A DNA stretch of 64,000 bases from a virus: positions 1 to 64,000 of IMG/VR virus record IMGVR_UViG_3300030451_003654; one strand, given 5' to 3'. Below, in pieces: positions 1-16,862 of the stretch. How positions within the stretch are numbered: the stretch's first letter is position 1; each line of letters begins with the position of its first letter. Both the position numbers and the translations under genes were made by a program. The notes under the pieces were generated by a model. It was given only the letters and a program-made list of their open reading frames with translations. It made no database searches and was not told the DNA's origin.

Positions 1-89
1 ACATAGACCTAACAAATGTAATTGAACTAACAGATGAAACCAACCTACAAGGTGAAATAGCCTGTGCAGGTGGAACATGTGAAATCTAA
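1..89 (+). CDS. C-terminal end of an upstream gene (partial)
   Basis: An open frame enters from the left edge (codons from position 3) and stops at TAA 87-89. It encodes 28 residues ending in ACAGGTCEI. The tail has two cysteines around a Gly-Gly pair. The rest of the gene lies outside the window, so no function can be assigned. A promoter-like TATA element follows, so the next gene probably starts a new transcript. Confidence 0.5.
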   Translation, partial: IDLTNVIELTDETNLQGEIACAGGTCEI

Positions 90-186: not shown

Positions 187-402
187 ATGAGCGAAAGCAA
201 GGATTATGAAAGCGAAGAAAAATATGAAGTGATAAGGGTAACTTCTTTGAAATCAAACGGTAGCGTTTGGACAAAGCAGTACGATAATGAAATTGATTGG
301 AATAAGGTAGTACCAATGTTGCTATCTAAGTTTCCTCATATTTTATTGAGTAAGCAAACATTGAAGCAAGACCCACTAACACACTTAATGAATATGGAGT
401 GA
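187..402 (+). CDS. Small protein of unknown function (71 aa)
   Basis: The ATG at 187 is preferred because GAAGTGAT precedes it. A GTG at 163 would add eight residues and would sit close to the expected transcription start, so a leaderless start there is the alternative. The protein is soluble and mostly charged. Residues around YEVIRVTSL...GSVW closely resemble YEIIRVDSL..GSVW in the product of 6176-6607, suggesting a shared small fold. It is the first gene after the TATA element and is followed without a gap by the next gene. Function unknown. Confidence 0.7.
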   Translation: MSESKDYESEEKYEVIRVTSLKSNGSVWTKQYDNEIDWNKVVPMLLSKFPHILLSKQTLKQDPLTHLMNME

Positions 403-407
403 TTGAA

Positions 408-653
408 ATGCAAATGAAAGGAAAGAAAGCAGTAGAATTTAGATTGATAGAGAGCGAAGATTTACCACCTGTGGTAATTAAAAGGAACGAAACAGATAAT
501 GGTTGTGTAATTGTACTAAACCGAGCACATACTATTTGGCTTAGTTTGAATAGAAGTACAATTCCTGGAATTACACAAAGTTTAGCCGAAAAATTAAACC
601 AATTGTGTGATGGATATTTAGAACAGCAACTGTTTAATTCAGAAATGGAGTGA
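408..653 (+). CDS. Small protein of unknown function (81 aa)
   Basis: The start is ATG 408, seven bases after a GGAGTGAT Shine-Dalgarno sequence that overlaps the stop of the previous gene. The GTG at 399 lies inside this ribosome-binding site and is rejected. The protein has no cysteine cluster, signal peptide or membrane segment. The centre has a VIVLNRAHTIWLSLNR stretch followed by a predicted helix. I do not recognise a family. It is co-transcribed with its neighbours. Confidence 0.7.
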   Translation: MQMKGKKAVEFRLIESEDLPPVVIKRNETDNGCVIVLNRAHTIWLSLNRSTIPGITQSLAEKLNQLCDGYLEQQLFNSEME

Positions 654-1853: not shown

Positions 1854-3101
1854 ATGGGAGAAGCAGTATTTAGAATTAGACATGCAAGTGATGATAGAAA
1901 CTCTATCTTAGAAACTAAACTAACATCATCAGCATTTATGAGAGATAGAACAATTGATATTTGGGCACAAAGACAACGCCAAAATATTTCAAAAGAACCT
2001 ACAATTGAGAGTATTCACAATGCTCTTAAGAATACACTAAGAGTAAATCATCTTGTTAGAACAAGCGAGAAGTCAAGTATCTTTATGAGAGTAGGTAATT
2101 GTAAGTATCTTATTAACATGAGAAAGGTAGGTAATAGATATATGGCAAATGGTGAGTTTGCTAATCTTGATACTATCATGAAAGCCATTAGTAGAACCAT
2201 TATGCGTTCCGCTTATATTAATGGAGAAGGAGAAGAAGCACAAGAAGCATTAGATGATTATTTCTTTAGATGTATCTATGTTCCTGAAAATGTATCTTAT
2301 GCTATGGAAAATAGAGTACCATACAAATTCTTTGAAAGGACAAATGAAGGTGTTAAAGAAAGAAATACCCGTTTGTCTTTGATGAGAATTGCTGAGGATA
2401 ACTATGCACTTGAAATTAGTAGCGGTGTATGGGGAGAAATTAAGACAAGAGATTTGAATACTTTTATCAATTCCTATCTTTATAATAAAAGAACGGGTAA
2501 GTGGTATATGGTTTCACCTGCTGAATTATGGTTTAGAACTGTTGGCGAAAAAGCCACTCCTGCTCAAGTTAAAATTATGAAAGAATTTTTGAAGCAAAAT
2601 AGGAGAAGCGATTTGGCTGAACAAAGGGCTATGGAATTGTTTAATGATATGGTTAAGAAATACGATGTAGTTACAAAAGGTGTTTATTCAAGAAACGGTG
2701 AAGATGTTTTGGCTATGTTTGTTCGTGGTAAATATGCTGATTGGATGATTGTAGATAATCAATCTAAGAGAGGTATTCAAGATGTGAGCACATATGTTCT
2801 AACTACAAGAAATACCGAAAATGTAAATCCTGTAATTCCTAATGTAATAAATAATACTGATAAAGAACCTTATTGGGCAGGACCGATTTGTATTGATAAT
2901 CTTTCAAGTGGTGCTTCTGTTGGCGACCAATTTGCTGCGAGAGCATTTGCTTGTATGAATGATACTATGCTTGTTAAATTAGTTTCTACTGTTAGGCGAT
3001 ATATTCAAGAGCATCAAATTAATCAAGAAGATATAAGGTTGGATTGGGATGCCGTGTGTAAATTGTCAGTCGAAGCACCTGAACTTAAACAAAGAAATTA
3101 A
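1854..3101 (+). CDS. Conserved-looking protein of unknown function (415 aa)
   Basis: ATG 1854 follows an AAGGAG site that ends the preceding gene. The product is a long soluble protein with mixed charge and no recognisable catalytic motif, membrane segment or zinc cluster. Its 3' end overlaps the TFB-like gene by 53 bases in another frame, which points to translational coupling. No family recognised; its place next to the TFB-like gene hints at an early regulatory role, but that is only contextual. Confidence 0.75.
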   Translation: MGEAVFRIRHASDDRNSILETKLTSSAFMRDRTIDIWAQRQRQNISKEPTIESIHNALKNTLRVNHLVRTSEKSSIFMRVGNCKYLINMRKVGNRYMANGEFANLDTIMKAISRTIMRSAYINGEGEEAQEALDDYFFRCIYVPENVSYAMENRVPYKFFERTNEGVKERNTRLSLMRIAEDNYALEISSGVWGEIKTRDLNTFINSYLYNKRTGKWYMVSPAELWFRTVGEKATPAQVKIMKEFLKQNRRSDLAEQRAMELFNDMVKKYDVVTKGVYSRNGEDVLAMFVRGKYADWMIVDNQSKRGIQDVSTYVLTTRNTENVNPVIPNVINNTDKEPYWAGPICIDNLSSGASVGDQFAARAFACMNDTMLVKLVSTVRRYIQEHQINQEDIRLDWDAVCKLSVEAPELKQRN

Positions 3102-3678
3102 TCTTCCTGTTTGTTCAGTTTGTGGTTGTATTCAGGCTTATAGAATATATGAGGTTAATGATATTCTACCTAATAAAAAGGTAGTAGTAAATGATTTAAC
3201 TTTGTTATTAAATGAATACGAGATTGAAGATAGAGATGAAGTTATTAAAAATGACAAATATATTTCTTATACTAATTTGTATTATAGTTATGATAGTGCT
3301 GAAAGGGCTGTGGCTATATTATATTACACAATGAGAGATTTAAATAAACCAGCAAATATGCGAACCTACTGTAAATTCTTAGGTTGTAAAGAAACAAGAG
3401 TTTCAAGATTAGCAAAAAAGATTGCAAGACATTATTCTAATTCTGGAGTGTTTGGTATAAATGATATTGACGAGTTTTTATCTAATATGGAAATCGAATG
3501 TGAGAAAGTTTCTGAAGCGTGTAAAATGTGGAATGAAACTCAAACATTAACAAGAGGCATTATTGCCGCATATGTATATGAATACACACCATATACTCAA
3601 AAACAAGTGTGTAAAAAATTTGGAGTTAGTTTGCCAAGATTGAAAAGAAACTTAAGGAAAGTGAGAAGAAATGAGTAA
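3049..3678 (+). CDS. TFB/TFIIB-like transcription initiation factor (209 aa)
   Basis: The N-terminus is a zinc ribbon with Cys3, Cys6, Cys22 and Cys25. After a linker come two helical repeats resembling the cyclin folds of TFB: about residues 83-132 (ERAVAILYYTMRDL...CKETRVSRLAKKI) and 165-207 (TRGIIAAYVYEYTPYT...VSLPRLKRNLRKV), the second with the helix-turn-helix that contacts the BRE. Archaeal TFB is about 300 residues, so this is a shortened version with reduced repeats. Known TFBs recruit RNA polymerase to TBP-bound promoters. The inferred role is redirecting host polymerase to viral promoters. The ATG at 3049 sits inside the upstream gene. Confidence 0.72.
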   Translation: MPCVNCQSKHLNLNKEINLPVCSVCGCIQAYRIYEVNDILPNKKVVVNDLTLLLNEYEIEDRDEVIKNDKYISYTNLYYSYDSAERAVAILYYTMRDLNKPANMRTYCKFLGCKETRVSRLAKKIARHYSNSGVFGINDIDEFLSNMEIECEKVSEACKMWNETQTLTRGIIAAYVYEYTPYTQKQVCKKFGVSLPRLKRNLRKVRRNE

Positions 3679-4228
3679 AAGAAATGTAATGATAATTGGT
3701 GCAGGTGGAATTGGAAGTTTTCTGATACCGCTTTTGGATAAAGTAGGAATATATGATATTACTGTATATGACCCCGACATTGTTGAGGAAAAGAATATCA
3801 CATATCAAAACTTTACTAAAGAAGATATTGAAAAGAAAAAGGTTGATGTAATGGATGAAAGATATAATGTATCTGCTAATCCTTATCCTGTTCTAACTGC
3901 TAATCAATTGAAAGGATATGATTTAGTTGTATGTTGTGCTGATAACTTAGATATTAGACGCACTATGTATAATTCAAATGTTAAATGGTTAGACCTAAGA
4001 GCACAAGCAAGAAACGCTGCTATGATTTCTTTCTTAGAAGATGCTAATTTGTATAATGTATTTACAAGTGGACCTGATGGTTCTTTTAGTTGTCAAGGAG
4101 ATACTTGGGAAGGAAAACCTGAAGGTGTTAATTTTATGCAAGTTGTAATTGCAGGTTATGGCGCACAATGGATGCAAAGATGGTTTAACGGAGATTATGT
4201 TGAAAAGCATTTTAGAATTAACGGGTGA
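3671..4228 (+). CDS. E1/ThiF/MoeB-like adenylating enzyme (185 aa)
   Basis: A Rossmann fold opens with VMIIGAGGIGSF (nucleotide loop at residues 10-15). It continues with VYDPDIVEEKNITYQNF, which matches the D-x-D-x-V-x-x-x-N-x-x-x-Q signature of ThiF/MoeB/E1 enzymes, then a lysine cluster and VVCCADNLDIRR, the usual (D/A)-D-N-x-x-x-R motif. Cys141 in SFSCQGD is a candidate thiolating cysteine. The usual C-terminal zinc CxxC pairs are absent and the protein is shorter than typical ThiF (about 240 aa). Family members adenylate the C-terminus of ubiquitin-like proteins. A JAMM protease lies 1.6 kb downstream. The substrate is unknown. Confidence 0.8.
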   Translation: MSKRNVMIIGAGGIGSFLIPLLDKVGIYDITVYDPDIVEEKNITYQNFTKEDIEKKKVDVMDERYNVSANPYPVLTANQLKGYDLVVCCADNLDIRRTMYNSNVKWLDLRAQARNAAMISFLEDANLYNVFTSGPDGSFSCQGDTWEGKPEGVNFMQVVIAGYGAQWMQRWFNGDYVEKHFRING

Positions 4229-4232
4229 TTAA

Positions 4233-4547
4233 ATGGATTATGTTGAATTGATTAGTAACGGTCATATTACTCCTATTATTTGTAATAAGTGTCCAAAAGA
4301 AGATAAGGTTGTAGATAGAGAATATTTTAGCGGAACAAGGAGTAAAGAAAATTTCCCTATGTCAATTGCTTTTATGTCGCCTATCTTATCTATTGGTTTA
4401 GATTGTACTTGTGATAAGTGTGGTAAAGAAGCAATCCATATGTATATGATTGACCCTTTGGAAAAGCATAACCTTTTTGAGAATACTAATTTTTCGAGAG
4501 AAGATTATCCATCAATGTATGAAGTAGATTGGAGTGAGGAAGAATGA
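4233..4547 (+). CDS. Small putative zinc-binding protein (104 aa)
   Basis: ATG 4233 follows a GGTGATTAA site overlapping the stop of the E1-like gene, so the two are probably translated together. Two metal-type pairs are present: CNKC near residues 17-20 and CTCDKC near 58-63. The C-terminus is acidic. The spacing suggests one zinc ribbon. No known family; its position right after the E1-like enzyme makes it a candidate partner, which is inference only. Confidence 0.7.
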   Translation: MDYVELISNGHITPIICNKCPKEDKVVDREYFSGTRSKENFPMSIAFMSPILSIGLDCTCDKCGKEAIHMYMIDPLEKHNLFENTNFSREDYPSMYEVDWSEEE

Positions 4548-4687
4548 GTGAATATAAAGATTATACAAGAGAACAGTTAATTGCTATGTTAGAGGAATCA
4601 AATGATATTGTTGATGCAGTATCAAGTTTCTTAGGTGCGACTGTGGTTGCAGATTTATATATGAATCATAGGAGTGAGGAAGAATGA
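4544..4687 (+). CDS. Small acidic protein (47 aa)
   Basis: The ATG overlaps the stop of the preceding gene as ATGA, with GGAGTGAGGAAGA just upstream as ribosome-binding site. The protein starts MSEYKDYTREQLIAMLEES and ends in acidic residues. It has no clear membrane segment. Coding support comes from the tight chain of ATGA overlaps on both sides. Function unknown. Confidence 0.6.
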   Translation: MSEYKDYTREQLIAMLEESNDIVDAVSSFLGATVVADLYMNHRSEEE

Positions 4688-4809
4688 AAACTTTGTTTAT
4701 AGGAATTATGGGAATGATTGTATTATATTGTATAGGTAGAGTATTGTACCCTGATATACAATATAAACCAATTCAACAAGAGTTAATTAAAATGGAGGAA
4801 GAAGAATGA
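4684..4809 (+). CDS. Small single-membrane-helix protein (41 aa)
   Basis: The start overlaps the previous stop (ATGA). A hydrophobic stretch, LFIGIMGMIVLYCIG, occupies residues 4-18 and an acidic tail ends the protein. This fits a small membrane-anchored viral protein. The next gene again starts in an ATGA overlap, which supports translation. Function unknown. Confidence 0.55.
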   Translation: MKTLFIGIMGMIVLYCIGRVLYPDIQYKPIQQELIKMEEEE

Positions 4810-5339
4810 ATTTCTTTTATATAGAAACTTGCCCTTTGGCTATTGCTAAAAGTCATAACAATACCCATTGTATAAAGATGATTTTAGAGTATGCACAAAT
4901 GCTATCTACGACTCATAGGGTTTTAGACCAATACTATGAAGAAGTAAATGGTGAGTATGTGTTTGTACCATTACCTAAAGATATGCAAATTCTTTACAAG
5001 ATTGCACATCTAAATCACCCAACGACAATTTGGGTTAGAGAATCAGTACAACATTACAATTTTATGTATGCTGTTTGGGAAGCATTGTGTGATGAATATA
5101 CTTATCGTTATGGTAAAGTGCATGAATCAGATAGTAAATTGAGAGAGTTGTTGAGAAACCCACCATCAAGATTAGAAGATAATGGATTTCAAGAACCACC
5201 TCAATGTATGCCTGATGAATTTAAAGTAGAAGGTGATAGTCTTCAAGCCTATCGCAACTTTTACATTCATGATAAAAAATTCAAAGGGTGGAGAAGTAAA
5301 TATAAGAAAAGAGAAAAACCTGAATGGTTGGTGATATAA
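4806..5339 (+). CDS. Conserved phage-type protein of unknown function (177 aa)
   Basis: The order of motifs is characteristic of a protein found widely in phages: an N-terminal MNFFYIETCPLAIA, then H-C-I-K-MILEYAQMLSTTHR, then LNHPTTIWVRES, then EYTYRYGKVHES, then EPPQCMPDEFK, and a C-terminal YRNFYIHDKKF...PEWL. From memory, the family is conserved across tailed phages without a settled function. The invariant His, Cys, Arg and Glu residues suggest an enzyme or nucleic-acid-binding role. It starts at the ATGA junction at 4806. Confidence is high that it is a gene and low for any role. Confidence 0.8.
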   Translation: MNFFYIETCPLAIAKSHNNTHCIKMILEYAQMLSTTHRVLDQYYEEVNGEYVFVPLPKDMQILYKIAHLNHPTTIWVRESVQHYNFMYAVWEALCDEYTYRYGKVHESDSKLRELLRNPPSRLEDNGFQEPPQCMPDEFKVEGDSLQAYRNFYIHDKKFKGWRSKYKKREKPEWLVI

Positions 5340-5539
5340 TGACAGAATGGAAATTAGGAGTAGGAACAGGAAATGCAAAATGTAGGGTATGTGGCAAACT
5401 GATTAAAGAAGGTCAGCCAAATATCAAAATAGTCAATTCAAGGATTAGTGGACAAATTCACTCTAATCCTTTTGACTGTGGAAAAGAAAGACAAGAACAA
5501 TTAGGATTTGAATATATAGGAGATGAAGAAGATGAGTGA
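5339..5539 (+). CDS. Small zinc-finger protein, PARP-finger-like (66 aa)
   Basis: ATG 5339 overlaps the preceding stop (TAATG) and follows GGTTGGTGAT. The motif KCRVCGKLIKEGQPNI...HSNPFDC has the C-x2-C...H-x5-C pattern and the I-x-x-G spacing of PARP/DNA-ligase III-type or related small fingers. A similar arrangement occurs in the protein at 8359-8625. Probably a nucleic-acid- or protein-binding adaptor; the target is unknown. Confidence 0.65.
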   Translation: MTEWKLGVGTGNAKCRVCGKLIKEGQPNIKIVNSRISGQIHSNPFDCGKERQEQLGFEYIGDEEDE

Positions 5540-5726
5540 TGAAATGAAGAATAGAAAGTATTGGGAGTGGTATGCAGACCATAGTAATATCGTAGCATTA
5601 TGCAGATTTTTACATGATGTAAAAGGTGTAAGTGTAGAAGATTTACTTTATGCTTTGGAGAAACCACATAAATATGAAGATGAATATAGAGAAATGTTAA
5701 AACATAATGAGGAGAGTGAAGAATAA
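5532..5726 (+). CDS. Small protein of unknown function (64 aa)
   Basis: The ATG at 5532 is chosen over 5523 because GGAGATGA lies at a proper distance from it; the earlier ATG is almost fused to the Shine-Dalgarno sequence. The product is charged, rich in Tyr, Trp and Glu, with no cysteine cluster. The chain of overlaps supports coding. No family recognised. Confidence 0.6.
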   Translation: MSDEMKNRKYWEWYADHSNIVALCRFLHDVKGVSVEDLLYALEKPHKYEDEYREMLKHNEESEE

Positions 5727-5803
5727 TGTTTGAATTATACTTTATCAAAATATTAGATGAATACAGAATTATGCCGTTTATTGGCGAATTTATAGGAGAG
5801 TGA
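5726..5803 (+). CDS. Possible micro-protein (25 aa)
   Basis: The reading frame starts at an ATG overlapping the previous stop (TAATG) and ends just before the JAMM gene, with GGAGAGTGA at its end serving as the next ribosome-binding site. It encodes a short hydrophobic peptide. The overlap pattern supports it, but a peptide this short could also be a leader that only couples translation into the JAMM gene. Confidence 0.3.
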   Translation: MFELYFIKILDEYRIMPFIGEFIGE

Positions 5804-5807
5804 AAAT

Positions 5808-6248
5808 ATGCAAACTTATGATATGAAATGGGAATGGAATGAATGCAAAGAAATGATTAGAGATATGTTTGATGGTGATTATCAAGATGACGAATTCCTA
5901 AATACTATTTGGGAAGTATCAACTGTATTACTTAACGGTCTTGAAGTTTCAGTTATTGTAGATGCTGATAATAAACTTTTTATTTCTAAGGGTACTGCAA
6001 GTTTTGTAGATTACAAAGATGAAAATGTTGTTGGTATGAAAATTCCTCTTAAGTGTTGGATTCATACTCACCCATTTGGACAAGCATATTTTAGTGGTAC
6101 AGATTGGAATACTATTAATTCTCAAATGCCTATCCTTAATTCAGCAATTGTACTTGGAGATATGGAGAGAATGAAATGGTGGAAAACACAGAATGGAACA
6201 CAAAGACTCGCAAAGATGACAATGGAAGAATTGTCAGAAGAAGAGTAA
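5808..6248 (+). CDS. JAMM/MPN+ (JAB) metalloprotease (146 aa)
   Basis: A complete JAMM zinc-protease signature is present: His86-x-His88-Pro89, then Ser96 and Asp99 (HTHPFGQAYFSGTD, i.e. H-x-H-P-x6-S-x2-D), with Glu46 as the likely general base. This matches deubiquitinase-like and prokaryotic JAB proteins, which cleave isopeptide or peptide bonds after a Gly-Gly, or process cysteine-containing conjugates. About 140 residues is the usual single-domain size. ATG 5808 follows GGAGAGTGAAAAT. An E1-like enzyme lies upstream in the same operon, so the two may act on one ubiquitin-like modifier; no such modifier is identified with confidence. Confidence 0.85.
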   Translation: MQTYDMKWEWNECKEMIRDMFDGDYQDDEFLNTIWEVSTVLLNGLEVSVIVDADNKLFISKGTASFVDYKDENVVGMKIPLKCWIHTHPFGQAYFSGTDWNTINSQMPILNSAIVLGDMERMKWWKTQNGTQRLAKMTMEELSEEE

Positions 6249-6607
6249 GGAAAATAAGATTTCCCGTATTATCTAATTTAGTAATTACTTGCCCTATATG
6301 TAGTGGACAAAAATGTAATGTTTGCAATCAAACAGGGGAGTATGAATTAGAATCAGAACCTTATGTGGAAATACAACAACCTTTGATAATCAAATATATT
6401 GTTGATAATATAGAATCAGTATCAAGTGAAATTCAAAGATTGTATGGTAAAACGCCTAATGTAGAAACATATATTGTAACTGATGAATACGAAATAATTA
6501 GAGTTGATTCTCTAAGTGGTTCGGTTTGGATTGCCTTGAACCTTAAAAAAGTTGAAAATCCAAAATACTTTTATAACAAGGAGAGTGTAGATAAATGGTT
6601 AGTGTAA
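6176..6607 (+). CDS. Zinc-ribbon protein sharing a motif with the first small gene (143 aa)
   Basis: The gene starts inside the end of the JAMM gene, overlapping by 73 bases, behind GGAGAGAATGAA. An Arg/Lys-rich N-terminus is followed by CPICSGQKCNVC near residues 39-50, a compact DnaJ-like zinc site. The C-terminal half contains YEIIRVDSLSGSVW, matching the product of 187-402. The basic N-terminus and zinc site suggest RNA or DNA binding. No known family. Confidence 0.7.
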   Translation: MVENTEWNTKTRKDDNGRIVRRRVRKIRFPVLSNLVITCPICSGQKCNVCNQTGEYELESEPYVEIQQPLIIKYIVDNIESVSSEIQRLYGKTPNVETYIVTDEYEIIRVDSLSGSVWIALNLKKVENPKYFYNKESVDKWLV

Positions 6608-6882
6608 GAGAAATAAAAAGAATATTTGAAAAGATAGCCCCAGAAAGGCAATTGCCTTTACCTGCGATTATAGAATTTCAAACAAGAGCCGAAAAGATTT
6701 TGGAACAGTTTGCTGAATTGTGTAATTTAGAAGCAGGTGGAGATATGACAAAAACAAGATTGACTAAGAATCATGTGAAGTTAGCATCAGTTAATTTCAA
6801 TGATAGAGTAGTTGAAAGAAAAGAAGAAGAATTAGAATTTGGAGAATGGAATACAGGAGATGATGAAGATGCTATGGAATGA
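6595..6882 (+). CDS. Histone-fold-like small protein (95 aa)
   Basis: Residues 4-65 follow the pattern of an archaeal histone: a short helix (IKRIFEKIAPERQLP), a long helix (AIIEFQTRAEKILEQFAELCN), a loop with T-K-T-R-L-T and a final helix NHVKLASV. The RLTKNHVKLA segment corresponds to the conserved RKT...IKLA end of the fold. An acidic tail is added. Archaeal histones are about 67 residues and wrap DNA, so this could compact viral DNA or act in transcription. The assignment rests on pattern only and a TAF-like fold is an alternative. It overlaps the upstream gene by 13 bases and the ligase start by 14. Confidence 0.5.
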   Translation: MVSVREIKRIFEKIAPERQLPLPAIIEFQTRAEKILEQFAELCNLEAGGDMTKTRLTKNHVKLASVNFNDRVVERKEEELEFGEWNTGDDEDAME

Positions 6883-13403: not shown

Positions 13404-14318
13404 ATGGGAATAGGAAATAAGAAAGGAAATGCGGCAGGAAGTGTATTGAAAAATGCAAAGGAAGAAAGCGGATTATCTGCTTTTAAGGAAGCAAAACTAA
13501 GAGCAATGAATCAGCGAAAGAAACTACTTGAGCAAGATTCAGCATTTATGATTTGTGGAATTAGTGGAAATCCAGGAACAGGTAAAACAGGAATTGCTTT
13601 AGATTGTAGAACCGAAAAAGAAAAAGAAACACATTGGTTGTTTATTCTTGATTTTGATGAAGGTGCTGAACCTACATGGAGGCAACATTGGGCTAATGAT
13701 GAAAAGATTGTTATCTTTAATCCATACATTTACAATGAAGATATGACTGTTGATTATTTGGCTACGGCTGATATGGCAAGATTCTTTATTGCTATGGTTA
13801 AGGAAGCAATTGAAACAGGACAAATTGAAGATGGTGAAGATACTGTACAAATTGATGCAGTAAAGGCTATTGTTTTTGATGGTCTTGATTCATGGTTAGA
13901 TACTACAAATATGATTGCAAGATTAAATCATATTAAGGGTAAAGACCCAAGAGCAGCAGATAAAGTAAAAATGGTTCCGACACAATGGTATGCAAGAACA
14001 GAAGAGTATAAGAGATTATTTAAGGCGGCTTGTCAATTAAGATGCCATAAATTCTTTATTACTCATATGAAAGAAGTACATGATGGATTTGATATTGTTG
14101 GTATGAAGCCTGATTGGGAGAAATCTACAACGGCTAAATTATTCCAACACATTGAATGTAAAATGGAAGAAAGAGGTAAAACATTTAAACTTACAGGAAC
14201 AGTTAGAAAGTCTAAGACTAATGCTGATAATGTAGGTCAGACATTTACAATTATGGAAAATAATGGTAAAGAAATTGTATGGAACGGTATTCCTGCAATT
14301 AGCGAGAATACTCTTTGA
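13404..14318 (+). CDS. RecA-fold P-loop ATPase, Sak4/AAA_24-like (304 aa)
   Basis: Walker A is GISGNPGTGKTG (55-62 core) and a Walker B-like strand is KAIVFDGLDSWL. The LFILDFDEGAEPTWRQ and FFITHMKEVHDG segments match the architecture of phage nucleotide-binding Sak4-type proteins. These single-domain RecA homologues promote strand annealing together with the viral SSB. A basic N-terminal extension of 45 residues precedes the core. ATG 13404 follows AAAAGGAAGTGAAGAAAA, the strong leader shared with the SSB-like and capsid genes. Confidence 0.75.
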   Translation: MGIGNKKGNAAGSVLKNAKEESGLSAFKEAKLRAMNQRKKLLEQDSAFMICGISGNPGTGKTGIALDCRTEKEKETHWLFILDFDEGAEPTWRQHWANDEKIVIFNPYIYNEDMTVDYLATADMARFFIAMVKEAIETGQIEDGEDTVQIDAVKAIVFDGLDSWLDTTNMIARLNHIKGKDPRAADKVKMVPTQWYARTEEYKRLFKAACQLRCHKFFITHMKEVHDGFDIVGMKPDWEKSTTAKLFQHIECKMEERGKTFKLTGTVRKSKTNADNVGQTFTIMENNGKEIVWNGIPAISENTL

Positions 14319-15563: not shown

Positions 15564-15832
15564 CAATGAGCGACCATCAAGATAGCGAGATATTTGCATA
15601 TGATAAAACATGGGAACAAATAGAATCTTTTTTAGAAGAAGCCGAAAGAGAGCAAAATAGAAGGTGGACAGCATTTCAAAGTTGTCCGAAGCCTTTGCGT
15701 ATGCAACATTGGAATAACTACAAAGGATTAGAAGGAGTAATTAATGCTCTAAGATGGGTTCTTGGCGACCTTAGAATGCCAAAAGAGAAAGTATTAGGGA
15801 GAGATAATAATGAAAATAGAAGAAAGAGATAG
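15560..15832 (+). CDS. Small protein of unknown function (90 aa)
   Basis: ATG 15560 overlaps the preceding stop and follows GGAGGAAGA. The product is helical and charged with conserved-looking tryptophans (TWEQI, RRWTAF, QHWNNY, LRWVLG). No family recognised. It overlaps the IMPDH-like gene by 23 bases. Confidence 0.65.
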   Translation: MTMSDHQDSEIFAYDKTWEQIESFLEEAEREQNRRWTAFQSCPKPLRMQHWNNYKGLEGVINALRWVLGDLRMPKEKVLGRDNNENRRKR

Positions 15833-16862
15833 TTTAACTTATGACGATATTAGTATTATACCATATATGTCTGATATAAAATCAAGAAGTTATTGTGATA
15901 CATCAGTAAATTTTGGGAATTATAATCTAAATGTTCCTTTAATCGCATCACCAATGGACACAGTATGCGGTTCAGAAATGTGTATTGAATTAGCAAAACT
16001 TGGAGGCATTGGAGTATTACATAGATTTCAAAGTGTCAAAGAACAAGTAGCATTATGTTATGATATTGAAGCAGAAGTTAGAGGACAATATATGGCGGCA
16101 GTTGGTGTTGGACAAAAAGGTAAAGATAGATTTGATTCATTAGTAGGTTATACTAATATTCAAGGTGTCTGTATTGATGTAGCACATGGCGACCATGAAT
16201 TAGTTGCTGATATGATTGCTTATATTAAAGAAGAATTTGAAGAAGTAAATGTAATGGCAGGTAATATTGTAACTAAAGGTGCGGCTGAAAGATTAATTGA
16301 AGCAGGTGCTGATTCTTTAAGAGTAGGAATTGGTAATGGTTCTATGTGTGAAACAAGAATTAGAGCAGGTGTAGGTGTTCCTCAAGCAACAGCAATACTT
16401 GATATTGCATATCATATAAATGAAGTTTTAGACTTAGATGAAATACCATATATTGTTGCTGATGGAGGTTGTAAAACAGTAGGAGATATTCCTAAAGCAA
16501 TTGCTCTTGGTGCTGATGCAGTTATGGTAGGTTCTTTATTTGCAGGAACAAAAGAAACTCCTGGAATTATATCTAAAATGGGAATTTGGCCCAATGAACA
16601 ATTATACAAAAAGTATCAAGGTTCGGCTTCTATTGATTCAAAAACAGCAAGAGGAGAAGAAACAAAAAATGTAGAGGGTAATTCTAAAATTACTCCGTAT
16701 AAAGGAAAGGTAAGAAGAATAGTTGAAGATATATCTGATGGAATTAAATCCTCCATGAGTTATGTTGGTGCTTATACTGTTTCCGATTTTCAAACTAAAG
16801 CACAGTTTTGTAGAGTTACTCAAGCAGGTCAATTAGAAGCAAAACCACATGGATTATATTGA
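15810..16862 (+). CDS. IMP dehydrogenase / GMP reductase family enzyme (350 aa)
   Basis: A complete TIM barrel without CBS domains is seen. Markers are [10 protein letters not shown] at the start, [16 protein letters not shown], the catalytic loop [13 protein letters not shown] (Cys near 179), [24 protein letters not shown] and a C-terminal SYVGA...FCRVTQ. The FCRVTQ ending and the length (about 345) favour GMP reductase, which makes IMP from GMP with NADPH. IMP dehydrogenase without CBS domains is the alternative. The role is adjusting purine pools during infection. It lies between PCNA and PolB, an unusual place for a metabolic gene. ATG 15810 follows GGGAGAGAT. Confidence 0.85.

Follow-up and report, generated by a model that had tools for sequence, protein, structure and literature searches.

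A conserved gene block of magrovirus-like archaeal viruses pairs an E1-like enzyme with a JAMM protease and a putative ubiquitin-like modifier

The E1 and JAMM Genes of the Viral Window

We analysed a window of 64,000 nucleotides (the whole stretch of DNA under study), which is the first part of the 86,860-base (86.9 kb) virus record IMGVR_UViG_3300030451_003654 and contains a gene block encoding an E1-like adenylating enzyme (E1) and a JAMM metalloprotease (JAMM). From these two genes, an earlier note on the same DNA had proposed that the virus might act on ubiquitin-like proteins. Four genes of the block lie in the window:

1854..3101, plus strand: o415, a protein of 415 amino acids and candidate E2-like partner (invariant C346, AlphaFold2 layout)
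3049..3678, plus strand: TFB-like protein with an N-terminal zinc ribbon (TFB), overlapping o415 upstream and E1 downstream
3671..4228, plus strand: E1/ThiF-type adenylating enzyme of 185 amino acids (Pfam ThiF, PDB profile matches, invariant residues)
5808..6248, plus strand: JAMM/MPN+ metalloprotease of 146 amino acids with E46, H86, H88, S96 and D99 (motif, PDB profile search)

The chain of overlapping genes described in the earlier note was found for most of the block, and it is broken by about 80 nucleotides without a plus-strand gene just before the JAMM gene. The zinc ribbon of the TFB-like protein matched Zn_Ribbon_TF weakly (E 0.07 here, 0.004 in relative L112).

The open reading frame at 3671-4228 was confirmed to carry the previously recognised ThiF/E1 signature (GAGGIG, YDPDIVEEKN and CADN), and its product matched Pfam ThiF significantly (E 3.1e-17; 63 bits, cut-off 28). 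A PDB profile search with E1 matched Cap2, UBA5, MoeB, ThiF and Uba4. The conserved residues are GxGGxG at positions 10-15, D34, D36, N42, K57, D91 and C141; specifically, GxGGxG, both second-strand Asp residues, the Asn, a Gln, the Lys, the adenylation Asp, an Arg and Cys141 were invariant in 104/104 distinct E1s. The Rossmann-type ATP site of the E1/ThiF superfamily (GxGGxG, ribose Asp, Lys and Asp, 104/104 each) is present, so that the 185-residue protein has intact ATP-site motifs instead of lacking them, as the earlier note had allowed for. The invariant C141 is a candidate thioester cysteine.

The JAMM motif at 5808-6248 was likewise found intact in a confirmed open reading frame (H86-T-H88-x7-S96-x2-D99 plus E46), and the Glu, both His, the Ser and the Asp (Glu...HxH-x7-S-x2-D) were invariant in 107/107 distinct sequences. 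The Pfam Prok-JAB score of the window protein was 20.7 bits, under the cut-off of 25, and the evidence from this single sequence is modest. A profile built from 15 relatives matched AMSH-like proteases in PDB with an E-value of 7e-5 over the motif region only, and archaeal Rpn11-like chains were matched in the same search.

We gathered 187 related loci with E1, JAMM, Ubl and distant-E1 baits, where Ubl is a putative ubiquitin-like protein encoded upstream in relatives. Note that many of these loci overlap one another on the same contigs, and the counts given here are not independent events. All five families (Ubl, o415, TFB, E1 and JAMM) were present in 82/82 loci with sufficient flank, defined as at least 9 kb before and at least 4 kb after the E1 start. 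The earlier note had considered that relatives might carry only one of the two genes; no sufficiently flanked relative carries E1 or JAMM alone, and in loci gathered by E1 or JAMM bait the partner gene was found wherever the contig was long enough. The order and strand of the five families were identical in 180/180 loci holding two or more of them. Between Ubl and JAMM, only the five families of the block, TFB among them, were universal in the 141 loci with both ends (141/141) and the next commonest occurred in 109, a count to be read knowing that the family clustering in this interval may split divergent families. Because the other loci were chosen by members of the gene set, an unrelated major capsid bait was also used, and E1, JAMM, Ubl and o415 occurred once each in 12/12 capsid-bearing records of at least 75 kb. 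The pairing of E1 with JAMM is no accident; the genes, their intact catalytic residues, their fixed order and their universal co-occurrence are direct observations.

A Gly-Gly Protein Encoded Upstream in Relatives

The earlier note had suggested looking for a small beta-grasp protein, and the search succeeded in part: a ThiS/MoaD-like protein with a Gly-Gly end lies upstream in relatives, and its Ubl fold is supported by profile comparison and not by a structure. It was first sighted as a protein of 68 amino acids ending VDLIPAIVGGTQ near the conserved genes of a distant relative. Homologues of about 70 amino acids, encoded about 4 kb upstream, were present in all groups of relatives. The C-terminal Gly-Gly was invariant in 76/76 distinct Ubls, of which 12 end there and 64 carry 1-9 further residues, and the size agrees with that of ThiS/MoaD/SAMP-type Ubls (65-90 amino acids, C-terminal Gly-Gly). 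When the Ubl profile was compared by hhalign with 31 archaeal MoaD/ThiS proteins, the alignment ran over the full length to the shared Gly-Gly, with a probability of 48% and an E-value of 2e-4 (one target); the score was 26.7, and none of 100 tail-preserving shuffles scored higher than 21.7. A Pfam search of Ubl gave no match. Viral Ubl is likely a ThiS/MoaD-type protein, a reading that rests partly on the C-terminal signature.

No Ubl was found among all open reading frames of this record, because the record has an unassembled gap before window base 1. Specifically, base 14182 of relative L038 corresponds to window base 48 and L038 3117-5410 to the far end of the record, and about 8.7 kb of a permuted genome of about 95 kb are absent between the ends of the record. 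The gap holds the Ubl gene (near 10,000 in L038) and most of a ribonucleotide reductase gene, the remainder of which opens the window:

1..89, plus strand: 3' end of the ribonucleotide reductase gene (...ACAGGTCEI stop; window-start sequence and ribonucleotide reductase Pfam match in relative L180)

In the near-identical virus L002 (96% DNA identity), the Ubl gene is located at L002:2190-2417, upstream of the ribonucleotide reductase gene. The latter (L002:4553-6412) is B12-type by the Pfam match of a relative and follows the Ubl gene in most relatives. Neighbouring proteins of 104, 143 and 84 amino acids were also considered as Ubl candidates and were ruled out, as none has a conserved Gly-Gly end; the 104-residue protein matched the TtuA zinc domain weakly, under the cut-off.

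The resemblance of Ubl to ThiS/MoaD and of E1 to ThiF/MoeB also suits a sulfur carrier, which is the main rival explanation. E1 would then make a Ubl thiocarboxylate, either for a cofactor or to thiolate tRNA, and JAMM would expose the Gly-Gly or free the product, as in ThiS/MoaD/CysO-type pathways. However, 47 other viral proteins included no rhodanese, cysteine desulfurase, thiamine, molybdopterin or CysM-like member, no sulfurtransferase, desulfurase, cofactor or thiolation gene was seen when about 20 more were scanned as well, a donor from the host being possible, and no sulfur-metabolism gene is a constant neighbour, the neighbours being transcription and replication genes. Furthermore, JAMM was still present in 21/22 loci in which Ubl already ends at Gly-Gly, indicating that trimming cannot be the only role of JAMM, and such retention where Ubl needs no trimming also argues against a sulfur carrier, which we regard as improbable.

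Another alternative is interference with the modifier system of the host, in which viral JAMM would strip off SAMP-like tags, viral E1 would divert them and viral Ubl would be a decoy. Many JAMM-type proteases are encoded by Methanoperedens Borg elements, and removal of SAMP has been proposed as their role (PMC12660748), and bacterial Ubl-like conjugation has a part in anti-phage defence (PMC10097602), both of which lend this interference some plausibility. Every genome tested, however, has its own Ubl with intact Gly-Gly together with an intact E1, whereas pure counter-defence would need JAMM alone and would be expected to be patchy, so that we consider such interference very improbable.

A Possible Ubl Modification System

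The remaining member of the block, o415, was always located between Ubl and TFB. Its C346, within GPICIDN, was found in 104/104 distinct sequences, and W297 and GDQ at 357-359 are invariant or nearly so. An AlphaFold2 model based on 92 sequences had a pLDDT of 88 and a pTM of 0.64, while an earlier model based on 13 sequences was poor (pTM 0.49). The C-terminal part is predicted to run helix, four strands, short strand, strand, Cys and helices, which is near the E2 order. For both models, the most probable PDB match among the matches listed was a UEV (E2-variant) domain, both times weak, with probabilities of 0.21 and 0.35; the latter, the UEV domain of TSG101, had a target TM-score of 0.33. 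In a viral structure library, o415 matched three unnamed homologues only. On the basis of the model, o415 is a candidate that looks E2-like in layout, and we do not call it an E2. The strand order of its N-terminal half hinted at a TATA-binding protein (TBP), and an hhalign comparison with 30 archaeal TBPs gave nothing.

The complete co-occurrence and the Gly-Gly ThiS/MoaD-like protein of relatives support the ubiquitin-like reading offered in the earlier note, and it seems probable to us from the sequences that magrovirus-like archaeal tailed viruses encode their own system for Ubl activation, attachment and removal. Most Ubl would start out as a short precursor carrying 1-9 residues beyond Gly-Gly. 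JAMM would cut this back to Gly-Gly, and E1 would adenylate this end, probably holding Ubl on Cys141. Ubl could then be transferred to proteins, possibly via Cys346 of o415, and JAMM would also take it off targets. An early action of the system, on viral or host proteins of transcription or replication, is suggested by the strict link to TFB and by the location of the block, which heads the replication gene cluster. Given that TFB is constant in the block and that a TATA-binding protein of Haloferax undergoes SAMP-driven turnover (PMC4895103), transcription proteins are plausible targets. The fullest form of this proposal is a complete viral cascade of Ubl precursor, E1, a new E2 family (o415) and JAMM, locked to TFB, which would tag TFB/TBP or RNA polymerase of the virus or host and switch transcription during infection; we hold this form to be doubtful.

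Several observations weigh against a viral Ubl modification system. The canonical Arg of the NxxRQ motif of E1 is replaced by Tyr in 102/104 sequences, the Gln being kept in 104/104, which we read as variation within the E1/ThiF superfamily, since the Pfam model still accepts the viral E1. The Ubl profile without its tail scored 14.4, which is noise level, indicating that the match hangs on the C-terminal tail, and 1/100 full column shuffles scored above the real match. A Foldseek search of o415 against PDB gave no significant fold match. In addition, comparison of the o415 C-terminal domain with PRTRC protein B (PRTRC-B/Prok-E2_D) gave an hhalign score of 13 against shuffles of up to 19, and o415 is not filed as an E2 because this is the level of shuffles. 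Finally, sulfur transfer is also known for E1-Ubl-JAB operons (PMC1779556), in line with a sulfur carrier.

The findings on o415 also bear on a variant of the proposed modification system that works without an E2. E1 or activated Ubl would modify proteins directly, as is presumed for SAMP, and o415 would be a substrate, an adaptor or a transcription partner of TFB. The failure of o415 to match PRTRC-B or a known PDB fold is consistent with this variant, as is the position of its gene, which runs into the TFB gene or directly adjoins it in almost every locus (median gap -34 nucleotides). On the other hand, the invariant Cys of GPICIDN, the helix-strands-Cys-helix order of the better model and the UEV domain at the head of the listed matches, weak as it is, speak against it. 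We would give the variant without an E2 slightly less than an even chance.

Neighbouring Genes and Viral Identity

Two further conserved genes lie in the window:

399..653, plus strand: o84, a conserved protein of 84 amino acids, in 140/187 loci and often near Ubl in relatives
6176..6607, plus strand: zinc-ribbon protein of 143 amino acids with invariant CPIC...CxxC, in 152/187 loci

The start of the zinc-ribbon gene overlaps the JAMM gene in near relatives, and a lipoprotein-like gene (LAGCADAIPDP) lies between the two in distant relatives (L008:4277-4729, L012:11402-11854 and L030:9944-10462). A member of PHROG 624 ('DNA binding protein', E 2.4e-47) is encoded at window 4806-5339, and this gene changes place in relatives, where it lies upstream of o84, after E1, or beside RFC. 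Small proteins at window 6595-6882 and L008:7199-7699 show a pattern that recalls archaeal histones, which is an impression only; they had no Pfam match.

The record has a G+C content of 31.2% and two gene clusters opposed in direction. Its proteins include a family-B DNA polymerase (PolB), an RFC small subunit, an ATP-dependent ligase, a terminase, a prohead protease, a portal and a capsid protein, and a chaperonin is encoded in its relatives. Magrovirales, which are viruses of marine Poseidoniales, were described as having genomes of 90-100 kb with about 31% G+C, PolB, RFC-s, TFB, ATP ligase, chaperonin and two opposed gene clusters (PMC10768690). From this resemblance, we infer that the record is a magrovirus-like archaeal tailed virus, including its order and host. 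The nearest kin of the portal and capsid proteins are those of haloarchaeal Druskaviridae, and an E1 of this kind is absent from the Druskaviridae member HCTV-5, whose capsid and portal are of the same type. An IMP dehydrogenase/GMP reductase-type enzyme is encoded in the replication cluster (window 15810-16862, Pfam E 1.5e-91), and an ERCC4-type nuclease and a PAP2 phosphatase are among the remaining proteins.

A host-encoded origin was considered and rejected after a scan of 84,980 species genomes for the E1 pattern, which returned six loci, three being viral-type contigs in bacterial metagenome-assembled genomes and three being distant. Loci L191, L192 and L193, filed under Maricaulis and Altibacter metagenome-assembled genomes, carry the viral gene block and look like mis-binned virus contigs. 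An Aenigmatarchaeota contig (L194:7894-10585) and a Methanoperedens contig (L195:7836-10558) share the YQNF variant of E1. In each, the E1 gene is overlapped by one encoding a protein of roughly 700 amino acids, which gave weak o415 matches (E 0.007 and 0.09); other mobile elements may thus carry a related system.

Significance and Comparison with Known Systems

The viruses are thought to infect Poseidoniales, which are among the commonest archaea of the surface ocean. If conjugation takes place, viruses outside eukaryotes would run ubiquitin-like signalling of their own, beyond countering that of the host, and a possible new E2 family would be added to the early history of ubiquitin; the link to TFB provides a direct target hypothesis. 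A literature search, with subscription papers outside its reach, returned no report combining 'magrovirus' with 'ubiquitin', and in the searchable literature we found no account of an archaeal virus order with a dedicated system of Ubl activation and removal among its universal genes.

E1 domains of bacterial CBASS Cap2-Cap3 and Bil/Bub systems were among the best PDB and PADLOC matches of the viral E1 (Cap2, E1-E2). Unlike the viral enzyme, those E1s are larger and often fused to an E2, and they belong to host defence operons and not to viral core genes. In Haloferax, Ubl tagging and JAMM release have been described (PMC4895103; PMC4443979), and the SAMP/UbaA/JAMM system of this archaeon shares with the virus a ThiF/MoeB-type E1, a Gly-Gly modifier and release by JAMM. 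The viral genes differ in lying in one block, in the short E1 of 185 amino acids, in Ubls that are mostly tailed precursors, and in the extra Cys protein o415.

Among phages, crAss-like members have an E1-like gene beside a gene for an HSH-x7-S-x2-D protein (crAss001 gp76 and gp77), as in the viral block, and the E1 domains are 29-33% identical, whereas the proteins are larger and the host and neighbours are others. Within crAss001 gp79-gp76 (L035:2253-6663), gp77 has the full JAMM motif and is annotated as a metalloprotease-domain protein, and gp79, annotated as hypothetical, starts like a beta-grasp protein. A search of 50,697 phage records found no relative of viral Ubl. In phage lambda, a Ubl and a JAB occur in tail proteins, where their role is another one (PMC1779556), and the JAMMs of Borg elements are deSAMPylase-like (PMC12660748).

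Prokaryotic operons with Ubl, JAB, E1 and E2-like proteins have been described (PMC1779556, Table 1 row 6d; Iyer et al. 2006). As in these PRTRC/Iyer operons, the small Ubl, the JAB/JAMM protein, the ThiF-type E1 and the partner with a Cys are each encoded by a gene of their own on a mobile element, and the viral E1 matches NCBIfam PRTRC_ThiF (E 2.7e-11). Unlike in PRTRC cassettes, which belong to bacterial plasmids, no ParB, protein D/E/F or alpha-helical partner was seen in the viral block; of the proteins that occur together in such a cassette (ParB-related, A, B, C, E, F and ThiF), only ThiF-like and JAB-like members were recognised by sequence. The PRTRC-C examined lacks the Gly-Gly end of viral Ubl, o415 has no significant similarity to PRTRC-B, and the viral core includes a TFB gene and is universal in the archaeal virus that carries it. 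As far as we checked, none of the compared systems unites Ubl, E1, JAMM, o415 and TFB in a block that is universal in a virus. The closest known kind is the prokaryotic Ubl-E1-E2-JAB (PRTRC-type) operon.

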